From: Gammaproteobacteria bacterium
Lineage (GTDB): Bacteria; Pseudomonadota; Gammaproteobacteria; GCA-001735895
Reading direction: 5' to 3'
Length of the DNA: 64,000 bases
NCBI GenBank assembly: GCA_029862005.1
Contig: JAOTYD010000002.1
Location: 186,001-250,000 of the forward strand
Part shown: positions 36,860 to 59,053 of the stretch, piece after piece
How the letters are laid out: each line of letters opens with the position of its first letter
How positions within the stretch are numbered: the first letter of the stretch is position 1
Position numbers and translations under genes: made by a program
The notes under the pieces: generated by a model
What the model was told of the DNA's origin: nothing
Database searches by the model: none
The model's input: only the letters and a program-made list of their open reading frames with translations

Positions 36860-38104
36860 ATGTTCTTTCACCGAGGTACCCTCAGCCAAAATCCAAGCCA
36901 AGTACCCGGCGTTAGGGCGTTTGCAATCCTGTCAGGCATAGAAAGCGTATCCAGGGGTATACTGATCTCGGTTTTCCCGGTTTCGATGTATCGGATTTTC
37001 GAAGACGCTCAGCGGGTTTCGGAAGTCTATTTTATGATCGGCGTGCTATCGATGCTGGTGACTCTGCTTGTTCCTTGGGTAAGTCACTCGATACCGCGGC
37101 GCTGGCTATATACGCTTGCCGTTATCACCTTTATTGCCGCCGCGCTGCTTTGTGCCTGGTCGAGCACCTGGGTGTTCGCGGTAGGGTTGGCCCTGTTCAC
37201 CCTGTCCGGTGTCGTGATTTTTGTATGCTTTAACGCTTACATCATGGATTACGTCAACCGCGTAAAGCTCGGCGAATGCCAGGCCTTGCAGCTATTTTAC
37301 AGCGGTGCCGCGTGGACTATAGGGCCTTTTCTTGGCATCTGGTTGATGACGCAGTGGAAACCCGCGCCATTTATTCTGTCGGCGATCGCAGCCTGCCTGC
37401 TACTCGCTGTTTTCTGGTATTACCGACTTGGAAATGGCAAGGCGATTCATCGCGGTGCGGGCGTGCCACCGAATCCATTTGCCTACCTGTACCGGTTTCT
37501 GCGTCAACCCCGCCTGGTCTCCGGCTGGACGTTTGCGGTAATGAAGTCAAGCGGCTGGTGGGTATACATACTTTACCTGCCAATCTACGCGGTCGAAAAC
37601 GGCCATAGCGAACAACTCGGCGGCGCTTTGTTGTCATTATCAAACGCTTTCCTGTTCTTGACCCCGTTGATCATAAAAACCATGCGAGGCCGGGTTCGAC
37701 TGGCGATTATAATCGGTTTCCTGTGCAGCGGCACGCTGTTCCTCCTGGCCTCGACCGGGCTTTCAGGATCATCCGCCACAATTGCACTGCTGGTACTGGC
37801 ATCGCTATTCATGATTCTGCTCGATGTGTGCGCCGGATTACCCTTCCTGATGGCGGTTCGTCCTTCGCAAAGAACCGAGATGTCGGCGGTTTACTCTACC
37901 TACCGTGACGTATCGGGCGTCATCACACCGGGGGCTGCGAGTCTGGTTTTGATGTTTGCGCCGCTCAAAGCGATATTCGGATTAACCGCGGCCGGTTTTT
38001 TTGGTTGCGCATTTATTGCCAGCAAGCTGCACCCCAGGCTTGGCATGCAGCGCTACAAGCCACTGGAAATCGAGCCCCTACCCGCGAAAGCCACCAGCGG
38101 ATAA
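36860..38104 (+). CDS. Major facilitator superfamily transporter
   Basis: A 414-residue, ~12-helix inner-membrane transporter. After a short polar N-terminus the first helix pair flanks the MFS loop region (around 'MIGVLSMLVTLLVPWVSHSIPRRWL'). A central cytoplasmic loop 'GNGKAIHRGAGVPPNPF' separates the two halves. The C-terminal half has 'VRPSQRTEMSAVYSTYRDVSG', typical of drug/metabolite MFS proteins. An AGGGAA site precedes the ATG by 8 bases. It is followed after 78 bases by a DMSP-lyase-like gene in the same direction, so uptake of DMSP or export of its product is a reasonable but untested guess. Confidence 0.88.
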   Translation: MFFHRGTLSQNPSQVPGVRAFAILSGIESVSRGILISVFPVSMYRIFEDAQRVSEVYFMIGVLSMLVTLLVPWVSHSIPRRWLYTLAVITFIAAALLCAWSSTWVFAVGLALFTLSGVVIFVCFNAYIMDYVNRVKLGECQALQLFYSGAAWTIGPFLGIWLMTQWKPAPFILSAIAACLLLAVFWYYRLGNGKAIHRGAGVPPNPFAYLYRFLRQPRLVSGWTFAVMKSSGWWVYILYLPIYAVENGHSEQLGGALLSLSNAFLFLTPLIIKTMRGRVRLAIIIGFLCSGTLFLLASTGLSGSSATIALLVLASLFMILLDVCAGLPFLMAVRPSQRTEMSAVYSTYRDVSGVITPGAASLVLMFAPLKAIFGLTAAGFFGCAFIASKLHPRLGMQRYKPLEIEPLPAKATSG

Positions 38105-38182: not shown

Positions 38183-38830
38183 ATGAATGCCTGGGAAAAC
38201 GAACTCGAAGAACTCAATGATCTGATCTGGCATACAATTGCAGCGCGCCAGGACATTGTAAACGGGCGCCAGATCGAGATACCGCAGCCGATCTCTACGG
38301 CACGGCAGGATTCTGAATCCCGCTTCAGCGACAATTTTCCAGTGCTGCAACACCTCGATCAGGCATTGTCATTGGTCACGAACTTTGATTTAGCCGAAAT
38401 TGCCGGGAGATTTTCACGCGTTATGGATAACCTGAGGTGGTCACAAAATCCAAACTACGACGATAACAACAGCAGCCGAAGTTTTCTCGACGGTTACGCC
38501 TATGTCGGCATCTCTGGTCCGGACGCACCGATCAGGTGCGCGGTACCCCGTGGCGGCCTGGTGCTGCTCGGTCCCGGTGTCGTCTATCCGAGCCATCACC
38601 ATGAACCGAAAGAAGTCTACCTGGTGCTGACCCCGGGCTCGCAGTGGTGTCTCGACGAAGGCGACTGGTTCGATGTCGCACCCGGTGACCTGGTCTTTCA
38701 CGACAGCTGGCAGATGCACGCGATGCGCACCCGCGACAAGCCATTACTTGCCTTCGCCGGCTGGCTGGATGCGGGCGACCGGCGCGACATCGGCTGGTCC
38801 GACAACAATGCAAGCACCAGTTGCGGCTAA
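38183..38830 (+). CDS. Cupin dimethylsulfoniopropionate lyase-like protein (DddQ/DMSP_lyase family)
   Basis: A 215-residue protein with a helical N-terminus and a C-terminal cupin. Motif 1 is 'GPGVVYPSHHHEPKEVYLVL', with His138-140, Glu144 and Tyr146; motif 2 is 'PGDLVFHDSWQMHAM', with His179. The order 'GPGxxYPxHHHxxxEVYxVL' and 'PGDxxxHxSxxxHAM' is that of the DddQ-type DMSP lyases, which cleave the algal osmolyte DMSP to acrylate and dimethyl sulfide at a divalent metal. Family assignment is by motif memory only. Related proteins exist whose DMSP activity has not been shown. The preceding MFS transporter would fit an import/catabolism pair. Confidence 0.78.
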   Translation: MNAWENELEELNDLIWHTIAARQDIVNGRQIEIPQPISTARQDSESRFSDNFPVLQHLDQALSLVTNFDLAEIAGRFSRVMDNLRWSQNPNYDDNNSSRSFLDGYAYVGISGPDAPIRCAVPRGGLVLLGPGVVYPSHHHEPKEVYLVLTPGSQWCLDEGDWFDVAPGDLVFHDSWQMHAMRTRDKPLLAFAGWLDAGDRRDIGWSDNNASTSCG

Positions 38831-43705: not shown

Positions 43706-44176
43706 TCGTTCTTCTTATTTATTTGTTCAGTACACTAAAGGGGGAAGCCGATAATATACTATATTTTAATCCCGATTCGACCTTTTACCGAGTATCCGCC
43801 AAATCAGCATCGAGGCGAAACAATCTCCTCCGATTAAAGGCGAAATTGGTCTAAACGGGACCATCCAGCGATCATGAAAACATGACTCAGATGTCAAAAA
43901 CATGGCACAGATCACATTAATTTCGATTTATCCTTCTTTTTGCCCGACTTGCATCGTTGGAATCTGCCCCTCGCTCGGACCGTGATCGAGCTGCCCAGAG
44001 ACCGGTTTACGGACTGACAGCTAACCCTTTTTCAATCCCCTTCCGGGTCCCTTTTCACCAGAATTGATAACTTGAATATACGGTAGTAACCTTATCGACT
44101 CGATCAATTCTATTTTTTCAATCAATACAATAATATGGGAATCCTGATCATTCCCATCCAGGCGAGGTCTTCGAAA
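43706..44176. other. 471-base divergent intergenic region
   Basis: This lies between the HDOD kinase gene (minus) and the plus-strand envelope cluster, so it should hold promoters for both. No gene or structured RNA is recognisable. An A/T-rich tract with several possible -10 elements lies at 43750-43775 and again at 44100-44135. A pair of direct repeats at 43877-43912 is listed separately. Confidence 0.5.
43877..43912. promoter_or_regulatory. Paired 16-base direct repeats, 20-base spacing
   Basis: Two copies of AAAACATGRCWCAGAT (14 of 16 positions identical) start 20 bases apart, about two helical turns, at 43877 and 43897. They lie about 265 bases before the first gene of the plus-strand cluster and about 170 bases before the kinase gene. 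Tandem spacing of this kind is usual for response-regulator or activator binding sites. Confidence 0.4.
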
Positions 44177-44725
44177 ATGCTCAAAAACGAATTTAATCTT
44201 GCCGCATTGCTCGCGATCGTAACCCTGCTGTTACCACAAACGATACTCGCATCCGGGTTAACCGTTGCGCAGGCAGACTCGACAGTCCAGGGCAGTGAGG
44301 AGGCCGATAACAAACCGAAACTGGTCGACCTCTGGCAACCGGGAGATACCGGTCAACGCATGAACATCCGCGGCAGGGTTACCAGTTTTGACGGTGCGCC
44401 GTTGGCCGGGATACCAATCTCGATCCGCCAGGCCAACGGCAATGGCGATTACACGCAGCGCTACAGTACGACCCTGCTCAGCGACGAAAAAGGACGCTAC
44501 CAGTTCGGATCGGTGGTGCCGGGTAATTATATCGGTGTCAGGCATGTCCACATCGGGGTCTACCACGACGGTTACCAGTACTACGATTCTCAAATACTTT
44601 TCAAAGGCGATCCAAACCTGGAAGGTTACACCGATGCGGACCAGGCGATATTTCTCGAGGAGTCTACCGTTAATGGCGAAACCATCCTCTTCGGACGCTT
44701 CGATATCGTGTTGGTACCGCGGTAA
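44177..44725 (+). CDS. Secreted intradiol dioxygenase-like protein
   Basis: A 182-residue exported protein with a signal peptide ('LAALLAIVTLLLPQTILASG'). The mature part matches the catalytic core of intradiol ring-cleavage dioxygenases: 'NIRGRVTSFDGAPLAGIPISI', a Tyr in 'GDYTQRY', 'GRYQFGSVVPGNY' with the second ligand Tyr, the 'RHVHIGV' His-x-His pair and 'SQILFKGDPNL'. All four Fe(III) ligands (2 Tyr, 2 His) and the active-site Arg seem to be present. Known intradiol enzymes are cytoplasmic, so export is unusual. The start at 44177 has a GAGG site; the frame opens at 44135. The DUF4159 gene follows after 58 bases. Confidence 0.8.
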   Translation: MLKNEFNLAALLAIVTLLLPQTILASGLTVAQADSTVQGSEEADNKPKLVDLWQPGDTGQRMNIRGRVTSFDGAPLAGIPISIRQANGNGDYTQRYSTTLLSDEKGRYQFGSVVPGNYIGVRHVHIGVYHDGYQYYDSQILFKGDPNLEGYTDADQAIFLEESTVNGETILFGRFDIVLVPR

Positions 44726-44783: not shown

Positions 44784-45587
44784 ATGAAACATGGGATCGT
44801 TCTTTTTTTCACGCTGGCATTCTGGCAATTGCCGTCAATCTCGCTTGCCGAATCACATCAAGGCGACAGCGAATCAGAATCCGCAGCCAGGGCCTTACAG
44901 GAAGTTCCCGGTAATGCACACGAGTTTTATTTTACACGCGGCATCTACAGCGGTGAATTCGATGATTACGACGAAGGTGGTCGCTGGGCGATAGACTACC
45001 CGAAGGCCGACCACCAGTTCCTGGTGGCGCTCAAGCGCCTCAGCATTGTCGACGCCTACGGCTCGGACAATGCGATCGAGTTGACCGACCCGATGTTGCG
45101 TCGCTTTCCCTTTTTGTACGCGGTCGAGGTGGGATCGATGTCGTTGAGCGAGGCGGAGGTGCTGGCGCTGCGCAACTATCTGCTGGCCGGCGGGTTCCTG
45201 GTGATCGACGATTTCTGGGGCAGCTGGGCCTGGGACCAGCTCGTTGCGCAGATGCAGTTGGTATTCCCGGACCGCGCCATTGTCGACCTGCCACCGGAGC
45301 ATCCGGTCTTTAATGTCTTCTATAATATCGATCGCGTGATCCAGGTGCCGAACGTGCGCCAGGGATGGGGTGCACCACAAGGCGGCCCGACGCACGAATA
45401 TGACGGTATCGTCCCCCACGTACGCGGCATTTACGACGACGACGGCCGGCTGATGGTGTTGATCAACTGGAATACCGATCTCGGGGATGCGTGGGAATGG
45501 GCGGACAACGCGGATTACCCACTCAAGTTTTCGACCTATGCCTTTGAAATCGGGATCAATTTCGTGATCTACGCAATGACCCATTAG
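44784..45587 (+). CDS. DUF4159 domain protein, exported
   Basis: A 267-residue protein with a signal peptide (Lys-His then a hydrophobic core to about residue 22). DUF4159 features are 'EFYFTRGIYSG', 'WAIDYPKADHQFLVALKRLS', 'LRNYLLAGGFLVIDDFWGSW', the 'PPEHPVFNVFYNI' segment and 'HVRGIYDDDGRLMVLINWNTDLGD'. The fold resembles a glutamine-amidotransferase-like Rossmann domain without an obvious catalytic triad. In other bacteria DUF4159 genes sit beside MoxR, DUF58 and VWA genes, as here. Function unknown. Confidence 0.88.
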   Translation: MKHGIVLFFTLAFWQLPSISLAESHQGDSESESAARALQEVPGNAHEFYFTRGIYSGEFDDYDEGGRWAIDYPKADHQFLVALKRLSIVDAYGSDNAIELTDPMLRRFPFLYAVEVGSMSLSEAEVLALRNYLLAGGFLVIDDFWGSWAWDQLVAQMQLVFPDRAIVDLPPEHPVFNVFYNIDRVIQVPNVRQGWGAPQGGPTHEYDGIVPHVRGIYDDDGRLMVLINWNTDLGDAWEWADNADYPLKFSTYAFEIGINFVIYAMTH

Positions 45588-45613: not shown

Positions 45614-47878
45614 ATGTTCGAATTCCTGTTCAAGTACCCAGTGAAGTTTTTCGATCAGGGCTCGCTGATCCTGGCCCTGCCAGGGTGGCAGTTGGCGCTG
45701 ATGCCGGTCGGGATACTGGTACTTGCCTTCATCGTACTCGGTTATTTCAACCTGCGCGGTAGCACTGGTATCCGTCATCGGGTGGTAATCGCCCTGCTAC
45801 GCAGTCTTGCTATTTCGCTGGTTTTATTCAGCCTGTCGCGACCGCTACTCGAAGTGACATCACAACTGGAACAACCGGGCCTGATCGGGATTCTACTCGA
45901 TAATTCTGTCAGTATGCGAATCGAGGATTTCGCCGGCGCACCGCGCAGCCGGGTAATTCAGCAGCAGCTCGACGCTGACTCCGGTAGCCTGCTGCGTTCG
46001 TTGCAGCAGAGATTCGAAATCCGCCTGTTCCGGTTCGGCGAAGACACGCAAGCAATAACCGGGATCGGGGCCATGAATTACGATGACGGCGACAGTAACC
46101 TGGTTCGGGCACTCGAGGTCGTGCAACAAACACTGCAAGGCGAACCCCTCGCCGGACTGGTCGTAATCAGCGATGGTGCCGTTCGTTCGACGGCGCAACT
46201 CGACGCCCTGCTGTTGTCGCTGCGGGCGGCCCAGGTTCCGGTTTTCAGCATCGGCGTTGGCCAGCCCCGCTACCAGCGTGACATCGAGATCAGCCGGATC
46301 AGGTTACCGAGCCGTGTGCTGAAAGGCAGCCGGGTTATCGCCGATGTTGCCGTGACCCAGCAAGGCTATAACGGGGAATCGCTTGATCTCATCGTCGAGG
46401 ATGACGGCCGTATCCTGCAAAAACAAACCATAACGCTTGAACCGGGAACGCAGTCTTTCAGGATACCGCTGATCGCGGAAGATAGCGGTACGCGACGGCT
46501 GGAGTTTTATCTCGCGAACCTGGCAGATGAACAAATCGTCGCAAATAACAGTCAACAGGAAATGCTGTCGATCAACGACGATAAAATGCGAATCCTCTAC
46601 TTCGAGGGAGAACCACGATTCGAATTGAAGTTTGTACGACGCGCGGTCGAGGATGATCGCAACCTCGGCGTAACAGGCCTGGTTAGAACCGCGGATGCGA
46701 AGTTTTACCGGGTTGGAATCGAATCGCAGCAGGAGTTGCGCGATGGTTTCCCGGTTACGCGTAAAGAACTGTTTGCCTACGACGCACTGATCCTCGGCAG
46801 CGTGGAAATATCCCTGCTGAGCCGGGAACAGCAGGAAATGATCGTCGAGTTTGTCAGCGATCGCGGTGGTGGCCTGCTCATGCTCGGTGGCCGCCACGCG
46901 TTTTCCGAGGGCGGTTACCGGGATTCGCTGCTACGCGATATCTCGCCGGTGGTGATGGCCGAACAGGCACAACCCGAGTTCAGCCGCGAGGTCAAGGTCC
47001 AGCCGACCGCGGCCGCCCTGGTGCAACCCGCGTTATTGATTGCCGACGATAATGAGAAATCGATTGCACGCTGGCAAACCCTGCCCCCGCTCACCATTGT
47101 CAATCCGATTCAACAGGTTAAACCGGGGGCAACCTTGCTGCTGACCAGTGCGCCGCAGGCACAGCAAGATCAATTTGTTATCATGGCTTCTCAGCGCTAT
47201 GGTCGTGGTAAGGTAATCGCGTTTGCGGTACAGAATTCATGGAACTGGCAAATGCACCAGGATATCGAGCCTGAAGATCAGACTCACGAGATCCTATGGC
47301 GCCAGCTGCTACGTTGGCTGGTTGAAGACGTCCCGGCACAGGTTGGTCTCTCCCTGTCGAGCCAGAATATCCATTCTGGCGGAACCATCAGGCTGCGCAG
47401 CGAAGTGCTGGATTTCGGTGAAAAATCCGATGCTCCACGCCAGCTGCACGCAGTGCTAACGGCACCGACCGGACTGGAGCAGATAAAGCCCCTTACCCCA
47501 CACCCGTCCGAACCCGGTGTTTACGAGACTGAAATAGCAGCTAATGATCCCGGGGATTACCTGCTGCACATCGAGCTCGAACAGCCGGATAAGGTAATCC
47601 GCAGCAGCGAATCCCGCTTCACCGTGACGGACGAGGGCAGTGAATACTATCGTTCAGAAATGAACGAAAAACTGCTGCGTAAACTGGCGGTCGACACCGG
47701 TGGTGATTTTTTCAACGCCAACGAGGCCGACAAGCTGGCGGACGCACTGCAAGCGCATCAACGCGGGACAACCACGCTGGTTCGCCATGAACTGTGGGAT
47801 ATGCCATCAATATTCCTGTTGCTGATTTTGTTTTTATGCGCAGAGTGGGGATATCGACGCTGGTGCAACCTGGTATGA
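45614..47878 (+). CDS. VWA-type membrane protein with amidotransferase-like domain
   Basis: A 754-residue inner-membrane protein. Two N-terminal helices ('WQLALMPVGILVLAFIVLGYF' and 'VVIALLRSLAISLVLFSLSRP') precede a VWA-like domain with a MIDAS-type 'DNSVSM' and 'LVVISDGAV'. Beta-sandwich modules follow, then a class-I-glutamine-amidotransferase-like domain around 'LFAYDALILGSVEIS' and 'VSDRGGGLLMLGGRHAFSEGG'. A final helix 'SIFLLLILFLCAEWGY' anchors the C-terminus. The large central part should be periplasmic. Its stop overlaps the next gene's ATG, so the two are coupled. Confidence 0.85.
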   Translation: MFEFLFKYPVKFFDQGSLILALPGWQLALMPVGILVLAFIVLGYFNLRGSTGIRHRVVIALLRSLAISLVLFSLSRPLLEVTSQLEQPGLIGILLDNSVSMRIEDFAGAPRSRVIQQQLDADSGSLLRSLQQRFEIRLFRFGEDTQAITGIGAMNYDDGDSNLVRALEVVQQTLQGEPLAGLVVISDGAVRSTAQLDALLLSLRAAQVPVFSIGVGQPRYQRDIEISRIRLPSRVLKGSRVIADVAVTQQGYNGESLDLIVEDDGRILQKQTITLEPGTQSFRIPLIAEDSGTRRLEFYLANLADEQIVANNSQQEMLSINDDKMRILYFEGEPRFELKFVRRAVEDDRNLGVTGLVRTADAKFYRVGIESQQELRDGFPVTRKELFAYDALILGSVEISLLSREQQEMIVEFVSDRGGGLLMLGGRHAFSEGGYRDSLLRDISPVVMAEQAQPEFSREVKVQPTAAALVQPALLIADDNEKSIARWQTLPPLTIVNPIQQVKPGATLLLTSAPQAQQDQFVIMASQRYGRGKVIAFAVQNSWNWQMHQDIEPEDQTHEILWRQLLRWLVEDVPAQVGLSLSSQNIHSGGTIRLRSEVLDFGEKSDAPRQLHAVLTAPTGLEQIKPLTPHPSEPGVYETEIAANDPGDYLLHIELEQPDKVIRSSESRFTVTDEGSEYYRSEMNEKLLRKLAVDTGGDFFNANEADKLADALQAHQRGTTTLVRHELWDMPSIFLLLILFLCAEWGYRRWCNLV

Positions 47879-48846
47879 AAATCGGACTCGTGATCTGCCT
47901 GGTGTTGCTGACCGCGCCGGCGCAGGCACTGCAACACCATCTGCTGATAATCAGTGGCCTGGGTGGAACCGAAAACTATAAGCAACAGTTTTCGCGCGCA
48001 TCCTCGAGCCTGGTCGAGGCGGCACTCCGGGCTGGTATCGACACCGGCAATATCCTGCTGCTGACCGCCGATTCGCCAATCGAGACGCCGGTCAATCATC
48101 GGCGGGCTGACAAGGCAACGATCAAGGAGGCTTTGCTGGAAATCGGCGCCAGATCTAGTGCCGAAGACCGGATATTCGTGGTGCTGATCGGCCATGGAAA
48201 TCCGCGCGGCGAAAGCGCAGTATTCAACCTGCCCGGCCCCGACATATCGGCCGAAGAACTCGCCGAGGCAATGTCCGGGTTCGACGATCGCACGAGCGTT
48301 ATTGTCAACACGGCATCGGCAAGCGGCCCTTTTCTAAAACCGCTGAGCCGTGATAACCGTGTTGTCATTACCGCAACATCGAGCGGACGCGAGTACCACG
48401 CGGCGCTATTCGGTGAGTTATTTATCGCCGCCTTCACCACAATGAACGCGGACCGGGACAAGGATGAAAGAATTTCGATGCTGGAGGCTTTCGACTATGC
48501 GCGACGTGAAGTAAAGCGTAGTTTCGAAACTGAAAAACGCCTGCCGACCGAACATGCAATGTTGGACGACAATGGCGACGGCGCAGGTAGCCTCGATCCC
48601 GGTGAATTTAAAGCAGACGGTGCACTTGCAAATCGCACCTACCTGCAGCAACCCCCATCACAGGCGACGGGCGCCTCCAGTAAACTGATCGCGATGCTGA
48701 AGCGTAAACAGTTGATCGAGCAATCGATCAGCGAACTGAAATTGCAGCGTGACAATCTGACCCCGGAAAAGTACTACGCCGAACTTGAAATTTTACTGGT
48801 CGACCTGGCGCTGTTGAGCCGGGAAATCAGGGCACAGGGCGGATAA
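47875..48846 (+). CDS. Exported C13/caspase-like protein with Ser in place of the catalytic Cys
   Basis: A 323-residue protein with a signal peptide ending near Ala17-Gln-Ala. The caspase-hemoglobinase fold is suggested by 'HHLLIISGLGGTENYKQQF', the His dyad residue His107 in 'VVLIGHGNPRGE', and 'SVIVNTASASGPF'. The last lines up with the legumain-type A-C-x-S-G motif, but Ser148 stands where Cys is expected. Two EF-hand-like Asp/Gly loops ('DRDKDERISMLEAF' and 'DDNGDGAGSLDPGEF') follow, then a C-terminal coiled coil. It may be an inactive scaffold or a Ser-dependent enzyme. The start overlaps the preceding stop (ATGA), and a 31-residue longer frame upstream is rejected. Confidence 0.75.
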   Translation: MKIGLVICLVLLTAPAQALQHHLLIISGLGGTENYKQQFSRASSSLVEAALRAGIDTGNILLLTADSPIETPVNHRRADKATIKEALLEIGARSSAEDRIFVVLIGHGNPRGESAVFNLPGPDISAEELAEAMSGFDDRTSVIVNTASASGPFLKPLSRDNRVVITATSSGREYHAALFGELFIAAFTTMNADRDKDERISMLEAFDYARREVKRSFETEKRLPTEHAMLDDNGDGAGSLDPGEFKADGALANRTYLQQPPSQATGASSKLIAMLKRKQLIEQSISELKLQRDNLTPEKYYAELEILLVDLALLSREIRAQGG

Positions 48847-51390
48847 ATGAAATCCGGCCTGGCATTGCTGCTGATCTGCGTTCAACTTGCCGCGGTTGCC
48901 AGTGCCTCCCCGCTTGAAACGCTCCGGACCCTGCGCCTCGCCGGAAACTATCAACAGGCGCTTGACCTGGCGCGCGACGAACTCAGGTTAGACAATAACA
49001 ACGCGCGCCTGCTAAACGAGCTCGGAGAACTCGAGTACATCAGCGGTGACCTGGATGCAGCATTTGCGCATTTCCAGCAGGTCATCGACCTGGCAGATGT
49101 CGATTTGCTGATGGCAAAGTGGAATCTCGCCGAGATTCATCACCTACGGGGCGAGCATCAGCTGGCGGAGGGCTTCTATCACGAGATCCGTGAGGCTTTC
49201 CAGACGCAACCCGACCTGAACTCCCGCGATCTTTACGCCATCGCAAATGCCACGCGCATGCTTGGCAGGTCAGACCCACAGCTGTTCAAAGAGGCAGTAC
49301 AGTTATTCGACCAGGCGAGCCGTATGAATCCGTCCGAAGTCGATGCCGGAATCGAACTGGGTGAACTGTTGCTCGAGAAATATAACAACCAGGAAGCGCT
49401 CGAAGTTTTCAAAGAAGTACTGTCAAGGAACGACAAGCACCCACTGGCGCTGCTGGGACTGGCCAGGAGCCAGCACTTCGACTATTCCTCCGCGGCCATG
49501 CAGACCGCATTGCAGGTACTTGAGCTCAATCCAAACCTGGTTCCGGCCCGGGTGTTCATGTCGCGCCTGTACCTCGAGCTGGAACAGTATGAGGATGCAA
49601 AATTCGAGGTTCAACGGGCGCTCGAGGTAAATCCCGTGTCGCTCGAGGCCCTGGCCATGCTGGCGGTGGTGCATCACCTCGAGCGAAACACTGTCGGGTT
49701 CGTTGCGGCCGAACAGCGGGTGCTCGGACTCAATCCCCGGTATGCCGGGCTATATACTGCACTCGCCGACCTCGCGGCACGAAATCGACTCTACCGCGAG
49801 GCACAGGATTTTGCCGCCATCGCGGTAAAGCTTGATTCGCAATCGTGGCAGGGTTATGGACTGCTGGGTATGAACCAGCTGCGCCTGGGACTGATCTCCG
49901 AAGGCAGGGCCAATCTCGAGCGCTCGTTTAGCGGCGATCCCTATAACATCTGGATAAAAAATACGCTGCAGCTCGCTGACAGTTTTAACGACTATGTGCA
50001 AATCACCGAAGGCCAGTTCCAGGTTGTTTTGCATCGCAATGAAAATGCTCTACTCGGGGAATACATACATGAGCTGACGGCCAGCGCCTACCGGCATTTC
50101 AGTGCGCGCTATCGACACGAACCCGATAAATCCATCCGGGTAGAACTGTACCCGGACCATGCCGACTTCTCGGTGCGCTCGGTGGGTCTCGCCGGAGTCG
50201 GCCTGCTGGGGGTTTGCTTCGGACCGGTGGTGGCCATGGATTCCCCGGCCGCGCGCGAACGCAGCGCTTTCAACTGGGGTTCGACGTTGTGGCACGAACT
50301 TGCGCACGTCTTCCATCTGTCGATGACGGATAACCGCGTACCGCGCTGGTTTTCCGAAGGTCTCGCCGTCTACGAGGAACGCATCGCGCGACCTGGCTGG
50401 GGAGGAGATGTCACGCCGGAATTTCTACTCGCTTATCTCGAGGGCCGCCTGCTGCCGCTCAGTAAGCTGAACAATGGATTCGTGCGCCCGAGCTACCCGG
50501 AACAGGTCATTCATTCCTATTTCCAGGCTTCGCTGGTATTTGAATTCATCGAATCCCGCTGGGGCTTCGATGTCATCCGCGAAACACTGAATGCTTTTCG
50601 CGACAGTAAATCTCCCGATAACGAGCTACCTGCACGCCTGCAACTCGATGCAGCCGCGCTCGACGCCGCTTTCGATAAGTATCTGCGAGACAAGTACGCG
50701 ACTGCGTTACGGGCCTTGGGCAACCAGGTCGAGCCGGGGCAATCGATGCAGCCACCGATCGATCCCGACCAGGTAACCCAGGATACCGAGGTACCTGATC
50801 AGTATTTTGATCAGCTCAAACTCGGAAATTTAATGCTCGAGCAGGACAAACTGGACCTGGCCGAGTTGTTTCTCGACCGGGCACAGCAACTGTTCCCGGA
50901 ATACGCGGGTGCCGATAGCAGCTACTGGCTACTGGCGCAACTCTACCAGCGGCAGGGCAGGAACGAGCTGGCCGAACGACAACTGACCAGCATGACCGCG
51001 ATCAATGCAGAACACCTTGAAGCGCATCTGCAGCTTGCCGGGCTGCGCGCCCAATTCGGCGATCACAGCGGCGCGGCGGCGGCGCTCGAAGCCGCAATTT
51101 ATATTTATCCCTACGAGCTGGAGCTGCACCGGGCACTGGCAGGGCACCAGGCCAGCCTGGGAGATTGGGGCAAGGTTACGCGCGAACGGCGTGCCCTGTT
51201 GGCACTGGACCCGGTTGATAAGGCAGAAGCTTATTACCAGCTGGCCTACGCCTATGATCGCGCGGGCGATCGATCTTCTGCACGTGAACAGATATTATAT
51301 GCGCTTGAGATCGCGCCTAATTTCCACCCCGCGCAGGAATTATTGCTCTCGTTGCGGGGCCTGGTACCCGCCGCGACCGAGACTCAATAG
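48847..51390 (+). CDS. TPR protein with gluzincin (peptidase MA-like) domain
   Basis: An 847-residue exported protein. After a signal peptide the first ~390 residues are TPR repeats ('RLLNELGELEYISGDLDAAFAHF' type). The centre is a zinc protease domain with HExxH at 483-487 ('LWHELAHVFHLS') and the third ligand Glu504 in 'RWFSEGLAVYEE', the peptidase MA-like arrangement. A second TPR block fills residues ~650-840. All zinc ligands are present. It begins directly after the stop of the caspase-like gene, so the two probably act together; substrate unknown. Confidence 0.88.
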   Translation: MKSGLALLLICVQLAAVASASPLETLRTLRLAGNYQQALDLARDELRLDNNNARLLNELGELEYISGDLDAAFAHFQQVIDLADVDLLMAKWNLAEIHHLRGEHQLAEGFYHEIREAFQTQPDLNSRDLYAIANATRMLGRSDPQLFKEAVQLFDQASRMNPSEVDAGIELGELLLEKYNNQEALEVFKEVLSRNDKHPLALLGLARSQHFDYSSAAMQTALQVLELNPNLVPARVFMSRLYLELEQYEDAKFEVQRALEVNPVSLEALAMLAVVHHLERNTVGFVAAEQRVLGLNPRYAGLYTALADLAARNRLYREAQDFAAIAVKLDSQSWQGYGLLGMNQLRLGLISEGRANLERSFSGDPYNIWIKNTLQLADSFNDYVQITEGQFQVVLHRNENALLGEYIHELTASAYRHFSARYRHEPDKSIRVELYPDHADFSVRSVGLAGVGLLGVCFGPVVAMDSPAARERSAFNWGSTLWHELAHVFHLSMTDNRVPRWFSEGLAVYEERIARPGWGGDVTPEFLLAYLEGRLLPLSKLNNGFVRPSYPEQVIHSYFQASLVFEFIESRWGFDVIRETLNAFRDSKSPDNELPARLQLDAAALDAAFDKYLRDKYATALRALGNQVEPGQSMQPPIDPDQVTQDTEVPDQYFDQLKLGNLMLEQDKLDLAELFLDRAQQLFPEYAGADSSYWLLAQLYQRQGRNELAERQLTSMTAINAEHLEAHLQLAGLRAQFGDHSGAAAALEAAIYIYPYELELHRALAGHQASLGDWGKVTRERRALLALDPVDKAEAYYQLAYAYDRAGDRSSAREQILYALEIAPNFHPAQELLLSLRGLVPAATETQ

Positions 51391-51449: not shown

Positions 51450-52493
51450 ATGAGAGACACGCCGATGGACATGCAAACTGAATCCCTGCAGGCTGCAGAT
51501 GATATCCAGCTCGCCGAGGACCTGAAAACCCGCTACCAGAAAACCCGCGAAGAGCTGGCAAAAATGATCGTCGGACAGGATAGCGTCGTCGAGCAGGTTT
51601 TACTCACCATCCTCGCGGGTGGCAACAGCCTCATCGTCGGCGTACCCGGCCTCGCCAAGACCCTGTTAATTCACACCATCGCACAGGTACTGGATCTCGG
51701 CTTTTCCCGTATCCAGTTCACCCCGGACCTGATGCCCTCGGATATCACCGGCACTGACCTGGTGCAGGAAAACCCGGAAACCGGAAAGCGCGAGCTCACT
51801 TTTCTGCCCGGACCGATATTCTCGAATATCGTGCTCGCCGATGAAATCAATCGCACCCCGCCCAAAACCCAGTCCGCACTGCTCGAGGCAATGCAGGAAC
51901 ACCAGGTCACGGTGCAGGGCAAGACCTACGATCTCGGCGAGCCGTTCTTCGTTTTCGCGACGCAGAATCCGATCGAGCTGGAAGGCACCTATCCCCTGCC
52001 GGAAGCGCAGCTCGATCGCTTCATGTTCGAGATTGTCATCGATTACCTGTCGGAACAGGAAGAACTTGACGTGGTACGCCAGACCACGTCGCTACGCGAT
52101 GTCAGTTTCAACTACGCGATGAACGGGGAGCAGATCCGCGAGTTTCAAAAACTGGTGCGCCGGGTGCCAGTGTCAGGGGCGATATCGCAGTATGCGTTGA
52201 GCCTGGTACGCAGCAGCCGGCCCGGATCACCGGGCGGACTCGACTTTGTTGACAACTGGGTTGCCTACGGCGCCAGTACCCGCGCTGCACAATACCTGGT
52301 ACTGGGCGCCAAGGCGCGCGCGCTGGTGGACGGACGCTACCATGTCGATTTCGACGATATCGTCAAGCTCGCCAAACCCGTGCTGCGGCATCGCGTGCTG
52401 CGTAACTTTCATGCAGAGTCGGAAAAGATCAGTGCTGATGAACTCATCGATCGACTGGTCGACGCGGTGCCGCTACCGAGTTCAGGCATGTAG
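51450..52493 (+). CDS. MoxR family AAA+ ATPase
   Basis: A 347-residue chaperone-type AAA+ ATPase. Walker A is 'GVPGLAKT', Walker B is 'VLADEINR', sensor and pore segments include 'FATQNPIELEGTYPLPEAQLDRFMF', and 'HVDFDDIVKLAKPVLRHRV' is in the C-terminal lid. MoxR proteins act with VWA proteins in metal insertion or complex assembly. Here a DUF58 gene follows after 11 bases and VWA genes lie on both sides. An ATG at 51465 is an alternative start. Confidence 0.96.
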   Translation: MRDTPMDMQTESLQAADDIQLAEDLKTRYQKTREELAKMIVGQDSVVEQVLLTILAGGNSLIVGVPGLAKTLLIHTIAQVLDLGFSRIQFTPDLMPSDITGTDLVQENPETGKRELTFLPGPIFSNIVLADEINRTPPKTQSALLEAMQEHQVTVQGKTYDLGEPFFVFATQNPIELEGTYPLPEAQLDRFMFEIVIDYLSEQEELDVVRQTTSLRDVSFNYAMNGEQIREFQKLVRRVPVSGAISQYALSLVRSSRPGSPGGLDFVDNWVAYGASTRAAQYLVLGAKARALVDGRYHVDFDDIVKLAKPVLRHRVLRNFHAESEKISADELIDRLVDAVPLPSSGM

Positions 52494-52504
52494 GTAATAG
52501 CGCG

Positions 52505-53428
52505 ATGCTGGAACCAAGGGAAGCTGGCGGCCAGGTACCCGGTCAACGATTTATCGACCCGGAGGTGCTGACTCGAATAGATAACCTTGAACTGGTGGCG
52601 CGCAACGTGGTGGATGGATTCATCAGCGGACTGCATCGATCGCCGCTGCTCGGCATGACGATGGATTTCGCCGAACACCGTGCCTACATGCCGGGTGACG
52701 ATGTACGGCGCATCGACTGGCGCCTGTACGCGCGCACCGATCGGCTGTACATCAAGCAATTCGAAGCCGATACCAACGCGAACCTGCACCTGGTGCTGGA
52801 TGTTTCCAGGTCCATGGATTACGGCAGCGGTGCGGTGACCAAGCTCGGCTATGCGAAATTTCTCGCTGCGAGTCTCGCCTACCTGTCCAGGCGTCAGCGC
52901 GACCGCATCGGCCTGGTTACCTTCGATAACGATATCGTCGATGTCATCCCGACATCGATCAGGCATTTCGAACGCGTGTTACATATGCTCGACCAGCTAA
53001 AGGTCGGCGGGGCCAGTGAATATCATCGGCCACTCGAAAAAATTGCCGAGCAGCTGCGGCGACGCAGCCTCGTGGTACTGATTTCGGACCTGTACGAAAC
53101 TCCGGAAAGGCTTTTGAAGGCAATAAACCAGCTGCATTACCGGGGTAACGACCTGATCGTGTTTCACCTGCTCGATCCGCTCGAACTGAGCCTCGATCTC
53201 GGTGCAGTCACCAGCGTCGAGGACCTGGAGTCGGGGGTTAATTTACCGATCGCGAGCGAGCAGTTTCGCGACAGCTATCGCCAGCTGGTCCAGGAACACC
53301 AGGCCGAGCTGGAAAGCCGGTTCGGCGCAAACCAGATCGACTACATATTTACCGACATATCGCAGCCCCTCGATAGCACGCTGTTTCGCTACCTGTCGGA
53401 TCGAGCGCGGCAGAACCGGGTGCGATGA
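52505..53428 (+). CDS. DUF58 domain protein (VWA-like, MoxR partner)
   Basis: A 307-residue cytoplasmic protein. The DUF58 signature 'EHRAYMPGDDVRRIDWRLYAR' is at residues ~58-78, followed by a VWA fold with 'LVLDVSRSMDYGSG' (MIDAS D-x-S-x-S) and 'LVVLISDLYETPERLL'. DUF58 proteins are usual partners of MoxR ATPases, and the gene order moxR-DUF58-BatA is conserved in many phyla. Its stop overlaps the next ATG by 4 bases. Confidence 0.95.
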   Translation: MLEPREAGGQVPGQRFIDPEVLTRIDNLELVARNVVDGFISGLHRSPLLGMTMDFAEHRAYMPGDDVRRIDWRLYARTDRLYIKQFEADTNANLHLVLDVSRSMDYGSGAVTKLGYAKFLAASLAYLSRRQRDRIGLVTFDNDIVDVIPTSIRHFERVLHMLDQLKVGGASEYHRPLEKIAEQLRRRSLVVLISDLYETPERLLKAINQLHYRGNDLIVFHLLDPLELSLDLGAVTSVEDLESGVNLPIASEQFRDSYRQLVQEHQAELESRFGANQIDYIFTDISQPLDSTLFRYLSDRARQNRVR

Positions 53429-55530
53429 TGGGACTGTCCTGGATCAACCCGCTCTACCTGGCCGGCACACTGTTACTGGCCCTGCCGATACTGATTCACC
53501 TGGTGCAACGCCACCGCGTTAACGGTATCAAGTTCCCGTCACTGATGTTTCTCGAGCGCATCCCGCTGCGTGAAAAACGTCGGCTCGAGATCAGAAACTG
53601 GCTGCTGTTACTGCTGCGCTGCCTGTTGCTGCTGCTCATCGTGCTGGCGTTTGCACGCCCGTTCCTGGTCGGCGAGACCGGACCGGTTGCGCTCGACCCG
53701 GAACGTACGGATAGTGTCATCGTAATCGATCGCTCCTACAGCATGCGCGTTGCCGATCACTGGCAGCAGGCGCAGCAAATGGCTTTGGACCTGGTCGACC
53801 GGAAACAGGCACAGGATAGAATCGCTGTCATCGTATTCGATGAAAACGCCGCCGTCGTCAGCGACCTTTCCAGCAACGCGGAAAACCTGCGCACGGTGAT
53901 CAGGCGCCAGGCGCCGGGTATGCGCGCTACCCGACTGCGCCTGGGCCTGGAACAGGCAGCGAGACTGCTGGACGCGAGTAATGCAAGCACCAGAAAGGTT
54001 TTACTGGTATCCGACTTCCAGGCGAGTGCGGTAAAGCCCGGTGAAATCCCGAAAATCAACCGGGATATCGAACTAAAAATGCTACCAGTCGATGTCGTGA
54101 GCGTGACGAATACGACGATTTCATCGCTTACCATCGGGCCGCCAACGCGCAACACTGTTGACGAATATTCGCTTAGGGTCGAGATCACGAACCATGCGAC
54201 AGACAGGCTGGACCAGCAACTTCGGCTAACGGTAAATGGGCGTCAACTCGCAACACGTGATTTGCACCTGGCACCCGGCAGTATGCTGAGCGAAACTTTT
54301 GACAACCTGGGTACCGGCGGTGACCTGGTGCGGGGCGTGGTCAGCCTCAATGACGATGACCTGTCAATCGATAACAACGCATTCTTCGTCTATTCCAGCA
54401 AACAACAGGTACCGGTATTAATCGTCGAAAGCGCGCAACCACGCCCCAACCAGTCGCTTTACCTCGAAAATGCGTTGCGGCTTTCGCGTAATCCCGTATT
54501 CAGCATCAAGCGCCTGCGCTGGCAGGAACTCAATCCGGAAGACCTCGCGACCTGGGCAGTCATTATCGTTAACGATGCATCGATCCCGGGAGGCAAGCTG
54601 GGCTCGGCATTGCAGGATTTTGTTGTGTCCGGGGGCGGTTTACTGGTTGCAACCGGGGAAAACCTCCAGGCTAACTGGCCGGCGGGCAACGACGGTTTCC
54701 TGCCGGGGACGCCGTTACGTCGGGTCGACTCGAAACCAGGCGAAGCACGAGATATTTCGGAAATCGTCAGCGATCATCCGCTCACCAACGATCCCTCGGT
54801 CCCGAAGGGTATCGACCTGTCGTCGGCACGGATCTTCAGCTACCGTAATTTTAAAACCAGCGCGAGCGACCGGGTGCTGGCACGCTATAGCGATGGTGCT
54901 CCGGCGCTGCTGGAAACAGCGCAACAGCAAGGCCGCGTGCTGGTTCTGACCAGCACGCTCGACACACACTGGAACGATCTTGCCCTGCAGCCGCCCTTCC
55001 TGCCTTTCCTGCACCAGGCCCTGCGCTACCTGGCAGACTTTGAATCCTACCCGCAGGGATTTGAAATCGGTAGCGTCATCGATGTCATGCACTATGCACG
55101 TGCATTTGCCGGCGGTGATGCAATCGTCGCTGCCGCTGATGACGCGGCCGTGGTTGTCGAAACGCCGTCGACCGGGGAAATCCGCCTGGATCGGCAATCA
55201 CCTTTGCTGGCTGTTACTGAACCCGGCTTCTACCAGGTCCACCGCGCAACCCCGGCGGACGCGGAAGTGGTGCTGGCGGCGAATATCAATCCGGTCGAAG
55301 CGAATCTCGAAATTCTTGACCCCGAACGTTTTGTAGAGGAAATTAGAGCCACGGTCGCACCGACACAGAGGGTCGGATTACTTACCCGGCGACAGGTCGC
55401 CGAGTACGAGCAATTTCAGCAGCTGTGGCACGCGTTTCTATCCGTGGTACTGGTATTGATGCTGGTCGAGGCATTTTCTGCGAACTGGATCGTGCAAAAC
55501 TGGTCTACCAACAAACGGACCGGAGCCTGA
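53425..55530 (+). CDS. BatA-type VWA membrane protein
   Basis: A 701-residue protein. The N-terminal 'INPLYLAGTLLLALPILIHL' helix plus 'FPSLMFL' and 'RNWLLLLLRCLLLLLIVLAFARPFL' form the aerotolerance-regulator N-terminal (BatA) module. A VWA domain with MIDAS 'IDRSYSMRV' follows, then beta domains and a glutamine-amidotransferase-like region around 'GSALQDFVVSGGGLLVATGE'. A C-terminal helix near residue 675 anchors it. It resembles the gene at 45614 in layout, so the cluster holds two paralogous VWA proteins. The previous gene overlaps by ATGA. Confidence 0.9.
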   Translation: MMGLSWINPLYLAGTLLLALPILIHLVQRHRVNGIKFPSLMFLERIPLREKRRLEIRNWLLLLLRCLLLLLIVLAFARPFLVGETGPVALDPERTDSVIVIDRSYSMRVADHWQQAQQMALDLVDRKQAQDRIAVIVFDENAAVVSDLSSNAENLRTVIRRQAPGMRATRLRLGLEQAARLLDASNASTRKVLLVSDFQASAVKPGEIPKINRDIELKMLPVDVVSVTNTTISSLTIGPPTRNTVDEYSLRVEITNHATDRLDQQLRLTVNGRQLATRDLHLAPGSMLSETFDNLGTGGDLVRGVVSLNDDDLSIDNNAFFVYSSKQQVPVLIVESAQPRPNQSLYLENALRLSRNPVFSIKRLRWQELNPEDLATWAVIIVNDASIPGGKLGSALQDFVVSGGGLLVATGENLQANWPAGNDGFLPGTPLRRVDSKPGEARDISEIVSDHPLTNDPSVPKGIDLSSARIFSYRNFKTSASDRVLARYSDGAPALLETAQQQGRVLVLTSTLDTHWNDLALQPPFLPFLHQALRYLADFESYPQGFEIGSVIDVMHYARAFAGGDAIVAAADDAAVVVETPSTGEIRLDRQSPLLAVTEPGFYQVHRATPADAEVVLAANINPVEANLEILDPERFVEEIRATVAPTQRVGLLTRRQVAEYEQFQQLWHAFLSVVLVLMLVEAFSANWIVQNWSTNKRTGA

Positions 55531-55540
55531 CAAACTCAAC

Positions 55541-58500
55541 ATGGACATGACAGGAATCAGCAACATCACGACCAAATTGGGCGACCTGTTGACACCGGCC
55601 TGGCAACGGGACAGCAACACTCGCCCCGGGTTATCCCAGGTAATCGAGCGCCTGCGGCGGCGCTGGCGATTGCGCCATTTACTCAACGGCCTGTTCACGA
55701 CCCTCGTGGTCATGATAGCGCTGATCGTAATCTCGGCATGGCTGTTAAACCAGTTGCATTTTGCGCAACCAGCGGTCTGGCTGTTACGTTTCACCCTGAT
55801 CTTTACCGTGGTTGGTCTGCTGTTTCAGTTTTGCGTCAGACCGCTGCGGCGCGATGTTAGCGAGTCCCGGGTTGCACTCTATTTGCAAGAGCACGAACCC
55901 AGCCTGAAGTCGATCATCCTGAGCGCAGTCGAGGCCGGGCAATCGGCGACACCGGATACCTCTCCCCAGCTCGCGTCTCGCCTCGTCGAACAGGCCATCG
56001 ACGCTTGCGAACACGTCGGATTCGGATACCCGGTCGAACAGAAAAAGCTGCGTCGGGCGACATCGAAACTGGGTCTCGCGCTGCTTGTTATTGTCGGCCT
56101 TGCCGCATCGCCGCCCGAGTTTCTGCGGCGTAGCGCCACGGCACTGTTAATACCCTGGACCACTGCTAGCCAGTATTCCCCGTATCGGATCGAACTGGCA
56201 CCGGGTAACATTGAAATTGCGCGCGGCGGCGATCAGCTCATCAGTGCCCGCATTCCCGGATTCGACGGATCCGACGTGTTACTGCTCACTTCCACCGACG
56301 GCGGGATTTCGTGGCAGCAGGCGACGATGACCGCGGGTAGCGACACCAGCCTTTACGAATCCTTTCTGTTTGACCTGGGCCAGGCTGTCGACTACTACGT
56401 AACCGGGGCGGGCCAGCAAAGCGGGACTTACCGCATCGACGTGGCCGACATACCGGCAATTTCAGAGATCAGCCTGCACTACCATTTTCCGCCCTACACG
56501 ATGCTGGAACCTGAAACCAGCCATGGGTCCGGTGACATTTCGGCACTGCGTGGTACACGCGTGGAAGTTTTGATAGAACCGACGATTGAAATTCCCGGCG
56601 GTGCGCTGCTGCTCGGTGATGGCCAGCGCATCGAGCTGGAAAATATCGAAAGCGGGAGTTGGATCGGTGAACTGACGGTGACACAGGACAGCAGCTACCG
56701 GGTTTCTTTGCAGCGCGCGAGTGGCATTCCCGTTGACGCCTCGGCCGATTTTCAAATTACGGCGCTGGATGACATGTATCCGGATGTTTCGATACTGAGC
56801 CCCGGCAGGGATACGAAAGTCAGCATGATCGAAGAACCCGTGATGAAGGTTCGGGCAACCGATGACCTTGGCATCGCCAAACTGGAACTGGTAGTGACGG
56901 TAAATGGTGCCGACGAGCAGCGTATCGCGTTAATGCCCTCCGGCAACCGAACGGGGGCCAGGCGTGAGCTCGACGCCGAACACGTTATTTACCTCGAAGA
57001 TTTAAACCTGGTCCCCGGGGATTTGATTTCCTATTACGTGCATGCGGAGGATCATTCACCAGCCGAGCTGGTCAAAACCGCAACCAGCGATATCTTCTTC
57101 TACCAGGTGCGCCCCTTCAGCATCGATTTCCGCAAGGCCGACCAGCAAGGTGGGGGCGGCGGTGGCGGTGCACAGGGCGGTCAGCAGCAGGGGCACCTCT
57201 CGGACCAGCAAAAACAGTTCGTCGTGGCGACCTTCAAGATGATTCGCGATCGCAACAGCTACGATGCGGAAACCTACCAGCAGAACCTGGAATTGCTCGC
57301 CACGGCACAATCACGTATTCGTGATCGCGTCGAGGCCATTATGCGTCGTCTCGCCAATCGTCCGCTGGTGCACCTGGATCAGAGATACCGCGTCATCATA
57401 ACCGAATTACCGCGCGCCGCAGAGGCAATGGTCGAGGTCGAGAAGCAGCTGCAGCAAATTGAAATTGAATCGGCCCTGTCGAGTGCCCAGGTCGCACTTC
57501 TGCATCTGCAGCGAGCGGACGCGGCATTTCGAGAAATTAATGTCGCGCTCGCCAATCGGGGTGGCGGTGGGGCTGGTAACACCGCCGGCTTCGAAGACCT
57601 GGCCGACCTGTTCAGGCTCGAAATGGATAAACTGCGCCACCAGTACGAGACCGTACAACGCGGACAACCACAATCCTCCGAACAGGTAATTGACGAAGCG
57701 CTCGAACGCCTGCGCGAGCTTGCACAGCGACAACAGCGGGAGATCGAGCGACAGCTGCGACGCCAGGAGCAATCGCTGGGCAACAACCCCAACGCAAAAC
57801 AGCTCGCCCTCGCCGAGGAACTGGAAGAGATGGCCCGACAGCTGGAAAGGCTGTCACGCACGCAACCCAATCCGCAACTGCAGCAATCGATAAACCAGAT
57901 GAAAGACGCGGCCAAAGCCATGCGTCGCGCCGCCGCCAGTGGCTCCAACGGGGGGACCAGCGCCGACCAGGCCAGGCAGGCGGCGCAGAACCTGCGCAAG
58001 GCCCAGCGCCTGCTCGATCAAAGCCGGGTACGGAAATTCAGCGATTCGATTGAAAGGACTTTACGGCGGGCAGAACTGGCAGAAAGAAAACAGGCGGCTA
58101 TCAAGCAGGACGTGATGCAACTGGACCAAAAATGGGGAGACCGGCAACAAAACCAGCTGGAACAGCTCGATAATCAAAAACAGGCATTGAGCGGGGAACT
58201 GGCGGAACTCGAGAGCGAACTCAGCAAACTGGTGGCCACGGCCCGCGAAGAACAGCCAAAGGCAAGCCAGCCATTGCGACAGGCGATCCGCGCCGGACGC
58301 GAGTATCGACTGAATGATCGTATCGGTCGCACCCGGGATATGGTGCAGCTCGGTAGAAAAGAACAGGCCATTGATAACGAAACCCGAATCCAGCAAGGGA
58401 TTACCAGCATGCGTGAACGGATCGAGTCTGCGCTGGCAAATATAGACCAGCAGGGAACGCGGGGTATGCAACTATCATTGGATCGCATGCGGGCCCTGGC

Positions 58501-58921
58501 GCAAGAGCTGCAATCGATTCAGAATCTGCGCAAGCAAGCCGCGCGGGGCGATGCGGCCGCAAACAGGGCGGACGCAAACGGGGGCGGCAGCGCGGGCTTA
58601 TGGCAGCAGTTCGAAAGCATCGTCGCCAGCGCTGACGACCTCGGTCAACGGCTCAACGAACTGGGTGTTGCGTCCGGCGAGATCGATCCCGTACTCGACA
58701 AGATCAGGGAATTGACGCAGCAACAGGATGACACCGATCTGGCCGCCACCTCCCGGCTCCACGAGCAGGCACTGTGGGCACTGATGGAGCTGGAGTTCAA
58801 GTTACGCATGCAATCGAGCAATCCCGAATATCCCGAGTTACTGGTCTCCGGGTCAACAGAATTGCCCGATGCCTACCAGTCAATGGTCGCCGACTATTAC
58901 CGCTCACTAAGCCAACCCTGA
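55541..58921 (+). CDS. Giant DUF4175-type membrane protein with coiled-coil C-terminus
   Basis: A 1126-residue protein. Two N-terminal helices (~45-70 and ~78-98) and a third near 175-192 are followed by a periplasmic region of Ig-like beta domains (~215-520). A Gly/Gln linker comes next, then ~500 residues of Gln/Arg/Glu-rich coiled coil (runs of 'LAQRQQREIERQLRRQEQ' type). Architecture and position after MoxR/DUF58/BatA match DUF4175 proteins. A scaffold or mechanosensing role across the periplasm is only a guess. No catalytic motif is seen. Confidence 0.85.
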   Translation: MDMTGISNITTKLGDLLTPAWQRDSNTRPGLSQVIERLRRRWRLRHLLNGLFTTLVVMIALIVISAWLLNQLHFAQPAVWLLRFTLIFTVVGLLFQFCVRPLRRDVSESRVALYLQEHEPSLKSIILSAVEAGQSATPDTSPQLASRLVEQAIDACEHVGFGYPVEQKKLRRATSKLGLALLVIVGLAASPPEFLRRSATALLIPWTTASQYSPYRIELAPGNIEIARGGDQLISARIPGFDGSDVLLLTSTDGGISWQQATMTAGSDTSLYESFLFDLGQAVDYYVTGAGQQSGTYRIDVADIPAISEISLHYHFPPYTMLEPETSHGSGDISALRGTRVEVLIEPTIEIPGGALLLGDGQRIELENIESGSWIGELTVTQDSSYRVSLQRASGIPVDASADFQITALDDMYPDVSILSPGRDTKVSMIEEPVMKVRATDDLGIAKLELVVTVNGADEQRIALMPSGNRTGARRELDAEHVIYLEDLNLVPGDLISYYVHAEDHSPAELVKTATSDIFFYQVRPFSIDFRKADQQGGGGGGGAQGGQQQGHLSDQQKQFVVATFKMIRDRNSYDAETYQQNLELLATAQSRIRDRVEAIMRRLANRPLVHLDQRYRVIITELPRAAEAMVEVEKQLQQIEIESALSSAQVALLHLQRADAAFREINVALANRGGGGAGNTAGFEDLADLFRLEMDKLRHQYETVQRGQPQSSEQVIDEALERLRELAQRQQREIERQLRRQEQSLGNNPNAKQLALAEELEEMARQLERLSRTQPNPQLQQSINQMKDAAKAMRRAAASGSNGGTSADQARQAAQNLRKAQRLLDQSRVRKFSDSIERTLRRAELAERKQAAIKQDVMQLDQKWGDRQQNQLEQLDNQKQALSGELAELESELSKLVATAREEQPKASQPLRQAIRAGREYRLNDRIGRTRDMVQLGRKEQAIDNETRIQQGITSMRERIESALANIDQQGTRGMQLSLDRMRALAQELQSIQNLRKQAARGDAAANRADANGGGSAGLWQQFESIVASADDLGQRLNELGVASGEIDPVLDKIRELTQQQDDTDLAATSRLHEQALWALMELEFKLRMQSSNPEYPELLVSGSTELPDAYQSMVADYYRSLSQP

Positions 58922-59053
58922 ACACAGGCCCCCGCTGATGGCGCGCGCCGCGTAATATCCCTTTGCAATCCCGATTTGGTGGATAATGATCCGTACTATT
59001 CGAGCTTATCGTATACTCTGAAAATCCCTGCCCCCGGTGAACCGCGCCAGCCC

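Follow-up and report, generated by a model that had tools for sequence, protein, structure and literature searches.

A legumain-like protein family without the catalytic cysteine, encoded in a bacterial MoxR/VWA operon

We analysed a window of 64,000 nucleotides from a gammaproteobacterium (contig JAOTYD010000002.1, positions 186,001 to 250,000), in which a gene at 47875-48846 encodes a putatively exported protein related to legumain (peptidase family C13) that has a serine, Ser148, where the catalytic cysteine would be expected. The open reading frame runs without interruption from the ATG at 47875 to the TAA at 48846 and specifies 323 residues, with GHG at residues 106-108 and N-T-A-S-A-S-G at residues 145-151. 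The genes follow the order DUF4159, VWA/GATase-like, C13-like, TPR-gluzincin, MoxR, DUF58, BatA-type VWA, DUF4175-like. This cluster is a MoxR/VWA operon, with a MoxR AAA+ ATPase, a DUF58 protein and a BatA-type VWA protein read in one direction and in a conserved order. The initial annotation, made from the letters alone, had the gene overlapping its neighbours. This is so upstream, where four bases are shared (ATGA, 47875-47878), but downstream the genes only abut, the TAA at 48844-48846 being followed by the next ATG at 48847. A hydrophobic segment at residues 1-19 resembles a signal peptide and, in agreement with that annotation, suggests export, presumably to the periplasm.

Pfam matched the protein to Peptidase_C13 (PF01650; E 1.6e-9; bit score 38.1, cut-off 22.8) with no other match of weight and none to C14 at E up to 1, and NCBIfam assigned no family. 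We used profiles because a single-sequence search of the PDB turned up nothing but a CRP-family regulator that looked like a chance match. Among the family members scanned, 38 of 72 matched PF01650 (E <= 0.001). An AlphaFold2 model built on a 72-row family alignment reached a mean predicted local distance difference test score (pLDDT) of 91.8 and a predicted template modelling score (pTM) of 0.86, and its top Foldseek matches are legumains and plant asparaginyl endopeptidases. With VIA-align 2, legumain (4nol_A) gave a Z of 23.0 over 205 aligned residues (root-mean-square deviation 2.3) and metacaspase-4 a Z of 21.5 over 210 residues (2.8); this comparison spans model residues 18-261, the C-terminal helical hairpin (269-320) lying outside it. 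With the Pfam match and legumain as the top fold match, the kinship of the protein with C13 peptidases is beyond chance, and the caspase/legumain-like fold first proposed from the sequence is confirmed.

When a profile of the family together with bacterial Cys-type C13 proteins was aligned with legumain (E 1.8e-12), the HG and ACYSG columns fell on DHG and EACESG. Hence, by sequence alignment, Ser148 occupies the place of the catalytic cysteine and His107, in GHG, that of the catalytic histidine, as numbered in the initial annotation, which had proposed structure prediction and C13 alignment as the check. As far as fold and sequence alignment can tell, neither of the outcomes that would have spoken against that annotation came up. 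We also considered Ser150 as an alternative nucleophile. It is present in 179 of 182 family members and is more likely structural, the same serine following the cysteine in Cys-type homologues (ACYSG). The protein thus has the profile match, the legumain-type caspase fold and the histidine of the HG motif that belong to peptidase family C13, but not the catalytic cysteine. As this is a defining feature of C13, we file it as a non-peptidase-type C13 homologue and not as a C13 cysteine peptidase.

We then looked at position 148 in related proteins from Pseudomonadota, Gemmatimonadota and Acidobacteriota. Public genomes were scanned with a set of motif patterns, of which one includes serine. The best 80 of 486 relatives, taken together with the loci of the genus, gave 96 rows, some fetched twice, with His in 96 and Ser in 90, Thr in 5, Ala in 1 and Cys in none; L017 and L019 had no row, and L016 and L018 had been set aside as Cys-type. 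Profile searches of the three phyla did not require serine, but their profile was derived from members of the family itself. They matched 77 of 150 genomes in Gemmatimonadota (one by a partial match without the site) and 38 of 149, about a quarter, in Acidobacteriota at E <= 1e-5, two of the latter (G575 and G588) having only weak, Cys-type matches. In Pseudomonadota, 28 of 299 genomes matched, namely the window's own family member and 27 weaker ones; 20 loci were returned from this search, and the 19 other than the window's own all read Cys. Within the genus the gene occurs in 15 of 31 genomes, with Ser at 148 in all 15 rows. A plasmid tblastn search gave one record, from Gemmatirosa kalamazoonensis, where the gene is split over two frames.

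Taking more than 150 bits as family membership (the best outsider reaches 65.6 bits) and leaving out L100, which is the same place as L170, we obtained 183 distinct rows from Gammaproteobacteria, Gemmatimonadota and Acidobacteriota. In the 182 rows with letters at the site, position 148 is Ser in 158, Thr in 16, Ala in 3 and Asp, Pro, Glu, Gly or Asn in one each; Cys occurs in none, and His107 is present in all. The distant C13-like homologues outside the family have Cys in 25 of 26 cases, the 26th being a gene fragment without the site. The survey of Cys versus Ser suggested at the outset thus shows the loss of the cysteine to be a family trait rather than a local mutation or oddity. A decayed gene or a sequencing error is refuted by 183 distinct homologues that share the same loss and the same synteny; nothing spoke in favour of such an origin, which is left with virtually no probability, and the annotation had likewise judged the gene not to be decaying. 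Among the literature matches listed, which are only part of the hits, no paper dealt with a Cys-less C13-like family.

A quick tree with 181 tips from the family and 20 from Cys-type rows, for which columns 146-151 were excluded, placed the Cys-less family in one clade (Shimodaira-Hasegawa-like approximate likelihood ratio test 96). Within the family, at least 14 changes fell on position 148, which ranks 49th of 313 positions by changes and 56th by entropy. On this tree the hydroxyl disappeared about 7 times, and Ser and Thr replaced each other about 6 times. His107, Asp123, Thr168, Asp193, Glu204 and Glu226 show no change on the 181 tips, and the 8 members without Ser or Thr at 148 all retain H107, D123, R162, T168, D193, E204, E226 and D232. 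A strict nucleophile should roughly match its histidine in conservation, and a Ser-to-Thr exchange is unusual for an internal nucleophile. The loss of the hydroxyl with the rest of the site invariant speaks more for a conserved pseudo-peptidase than for a serine protease, although some facts weigh on the other side. Ser or Thr is retained in 174 of 182 members across three phyla, which is a real constraint, and the histidine is never lost; such retention would equally be expected from a Ser/Thr nucleophile with a few dead members. Moreover, many pseudo-peptidases lose the histidine too, such as the Tyr-Ser orthocaspases described in PMC6426788.

These facts bear on the alternative that the protein is active, as a Ca2+-dependent Ser/Thr hydrolase with the caspase/legumain fold that works through a dyad of Ser148 (or Thr) and His107; family members carrying Ala, Asp, Pro, Glu, Gly or Asn would then be secondarily dead. 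The fold carries both motifs intact, GHG and the A-S-x-S-G frame being retained. A serine strictly conserved together with the histidine, as in a hypothetical caspase-fold serine peptidase, is not what the family has, since 8 of 182 members carry neither Ser nor Thr and 16 carry Thr. In addition, the natural Cys-to-Ser homologue TbMCA4 is reported as inactive (PMC6657590), and clan CD is described in PMC4357240 as a group of cysteine peptidases. We regard this hydrolase as unlikely, and the Ser-nucleophile option of the initial annotation has come out the less well supported of its two proposals, the six replacements occurring in members that keep the other invariant residues. A shade less likely still is its fuller version, a clan CD hydrolase in which the Cys nucleophile was exchanged for Ser/Thr, controlled by Ca2+ and built into a MoxR AAA+ machine, with a few members secondarily inactive; if true, it would be a Ser/Thr peptidase of caspase/legumain fold. 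The invariant His107, Asp123 and Thr168, with a position 148 that is mostly, not strictly, hydroxylated, would also suit another chemistry or the binding of a ligand or metal, Ser148 being a hydrogen-bond partner only. Among the fold matches listed, in which only folds were compared, we noticed no enzyme of this fold with such chemistry, and we hold this idea to be improbable.

Pseudo-peptidases of related folds have been described, and these are the closest precedents for the reading that we prefer. Pseudo-orthocaspases of cyanobacteria and other bacteria have replaced catalytic dyads, are presumed inactive and are maintained in evolution, according to PMC6426788. They resemble the family in having a caspase-like fold with a replaced dyad. 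They are C14-type p20 proteins, often with Tyr-Ser, whereas our family is C13-like, with C13 as its only match of weight, and keeps the histidine in a His-Ser dyad (Ser or Thr across members), so that it does not belong to them. The metacaspase 4 of Trypanosoma brucei, TbMCA4, is reported in PMC6657590 to have a natural Cys-to-Ser replacement and to be an inactive pseudopeptidase that is still functional. It is alike in that Ser replaces the clan CD Cys with function retained, and this supports a pseudo-peptidase here; unlike the C13-like family, it is a eukaryotic metacaspase and not an operon component. With legumain and the other C13 proteins, including bacterial Cys-type ones, the family shares the fold, the His-Gly motif and the A-x-x-S-G frame. 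It differs from them by the absence of the catalytic Cys (182 of 182), by an EF-hand-like loop and a C-terminal helical hairpin, and by its fixed place in a MoxR/VWA operon.

The EF-hand-like loop reads D193-x-D195-x-D197-x3-S201-x2-E204. Its ligand positions (1, 3, 5, 9 and 12 of the loop) are compatible with the EF-hand pattern in 182 of 183 rows, the remaining row having a gap, and a second loop has the motif D-x-N-x-D-G at residues 231-236, so that EF-hand-like loops, as noticed initially, are there. Three Cys-type homologues (L198, L254 and L255) with a C13/caspase-like domain carry a similar EF-hand-like loop at the same place and keep the cysteine, in ACFSG, QCYGG and PCFSG. The loop is therefore probably older than the loss of the Cys, as judged from these sequences.

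The most constant neighbour of the C13-like gene is the VWA/GATase-like gene, present in 99 of 100 loci and the nearest recognised upstream gene in 171 of 183 distinct rows. The linkage is strict: of the 31 genomes of the genus, 15 have both genes and 16 have neither, and outside the genus the VWA/GATase-like gene was found in 0 of 26. The VWA/GATase-like protein has three transmembrane segments, the first and second of which are joined by a positively charged loop, and its model (pLDDT 87.1) shows a well-modelled beta-rich body between the second and the third. This topology probably places the body in the periplasm, the compartment expected for the C13-like protein as well. As to the GATase-like part of this neighbour, no Cys is conserved in it among 107 homologues, the sole Cys-rich column, 73, lying in a transmembrane helix; the operon may thus encode, in this neighbour, another enzyme fold that is dead.

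The gluzincin gene lies near the C13-like gene in 136 of 161 judged loci, with its HExxH retained in most rows, and the C13-like protein could be an inhibitor or chaperone dedicated to this TPR-gluzincin next to it. By raw counts, the gluzincin is missing in 5 of 7 judged members without Ser/Thr at 148 versus 20 of 153 with it. Strong as it looks by count, this association of a lost hydroxyl with a missing gluzincin fails a correction for relatedness: few lineages contribute to it, and a sign test on 3 independent pairs was not significant. In 25 of 161 loci, moreover, the C13-like gene occurs without the gluzincin, the gene of the VWA protein keeps it company more constantly, and fusions of the C13-like domain with its neighbours were looked for and none found. 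We therefore consider a dedicated gluzincin partner quite unlikely. Where the initial annotation had suggested a pseudo-protease that regulates the gluzincin, the pseudo-protease is retained, and the regulation of the gluzincin is not specifically supported.

The reading that we favour, as probable, is that the family is monophyletic, consists of pseudo-peptidases with the legumain fold and belongs as a regular component to a MoxR-AAA+/VWA envelope operon. A loss of the cysteine common to a large family in three phyla, within the same conserved gene cluster, makes the protein most likely a binding part and not a protease, and the constant company of the VWA gene supports this as well. In the mechanism that we propose, the protein would be exported to the periplasm, would be folded or stabilised by Ca2+ and would no longer cleave peptides. 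The old active-site cleft and the C-terminal hairpin could instead bind a peptide segment or a partner, for which the ectodomain of the VWA/GATase-like membrane protein, at about residues 76-726, is the most likely candidate. The C13-like protein would then serve a MoxR-driven remodelling complex as a subunit for structure or recognition. Most of what is known of caspase-fold proteins concerns cysteine proteases, with inactive relatives described among orthocaspases and metacaspases. Here a whole C13-like clade gave up the cysteine yet stays in strict synteny, and the defined operon makes the role of a non-cutting protease fold a testable question. The family is, in addition, a way into a MoxR/VWA system that is uncharacterised.

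What the operon has in common with known MoxR AAA+/VWA systems (RavA-ViaA, NorQ-NorD, Bat operons) is MoxR, DUF58 and a BatA-type VWA protein in one operon, to which it adds the DUF4159, VWA/GATase-like, Cys-less C13-like and TPR-gluzincin proteins. DUF4159 was named in no paper of the literature searched. A role of a MoxR/VWA pair in metal insertion is reported in PMC5756287 and PMC13036017. The features of the locus are collected in Table 1.

Table 1. Features of the C13-like gene and its operon. Neighbour counts are out of 100 loci and are lowered by contig ends, which were counted as absence.
Feature	Position	Strand	Evidence
DUF4159 exported protein, upstream operon gene	44784..45587	+	PF13709 2e-43; 88/100 loci
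VWA + GATase-like membrane protein	45614..47878	+	PF07090 9.5e-8; VWA 1.7e-4 (below its cut-off); 99/100 loci; pLDDT 87.1
Cys-less legumain-like (C13-like) protein, putatively exported	47875..48846	+	open frame; PF01650 1.6e-9; AlphaFold2 pLDDT 91.8; legumain Z 23.0
Signal-peptide-like N-terminus, residues 1-19	47875..47931	+	hydrophobic segment 1-19; low model confidence there; cleavage inferred
His107 codon (cat), equivalent of legumain catalytic His	48193..48195	+	182/182 family members; aligned with legumain DHG
Ser148 codon (tcg), equivalent of legumain catalytic Cys	48316..48318	+	Cys 0/182; aligned with ACYSG (Cys-type C13) and EACESG (legumain)
EF-hand-like loop D193-E204	48451..48486	+	between predicted helices 179-189 and 202-219; ligand positions compatible in 182/183 rows
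Second Ca2+-type loop, residues 231-239 (DDNGDGAGS)	48565..48591	+	shared with some Cys-type C13 homologues
C-terminal helical hairpin, helices 269-290 and 297-320	48679..48834	+	model; not present in aligned Cys-type C13 segments
TPR + gluzincin (Peptidase_MA_2) exported protein	48847..51390	+	PF13485 1.3e-8; HELAH residues 483-487; 82/100 loci
MoxR AAA+ ATPase	51450..52493	+	PF07726 3.2e-61; 77/100 loci
DUF58 (VWA-like) protein	52505..53428	+	PF01882 2.9e-47; 74/100 loci
BatA-type membrane VWA protein	53425..55530	+	PF07584 1.1e-18; 73/100 loci
DUF4175-like membrane / coiled protein	55541..58921	+	PF13779 1.2e-8; 66/100 loci

Some further observations concern the operon and its surroundings. 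Some Acidobacteriota have a second, rearranged operon, in which MoxR, DUF58, BatA, DUF4175 and VWA/GATase-like genes come first and the C13-like gene last. In the rearranged-operon copies L238, L239, L242 and L252, position 148 is Ala, Glu or Gly and Gly151 is altered as well, and one such copy, L237, has Ser at 148. At L233, L236, L249 and L251 (two genes seen twice), a TPR-gluzincin match precedes the C13-like gene and no VWA match was seen. In the window, the TldD/PmbA-type metallopeptidase gene at 58976-60499 follows the operon; no TldD match was found in the 100 loci, most of which end before that place. An exported intradiol-dioxygenase-like / carboxypeptidase-regulatory-like protein is encoded at 44135-44722 and is found at the operon in 13 of 100 loci, all gammaproteobacterial by title. 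Farther upstream, a dimethylsulfoniopropionate (DMSP) lyase gene at 38183-38827 (PF16867, 4.8e-36) adjoins a major facilitator superfamily transporter gene at 36860-38101, and the two likely form a pair for DMSP uptake and cleavage.

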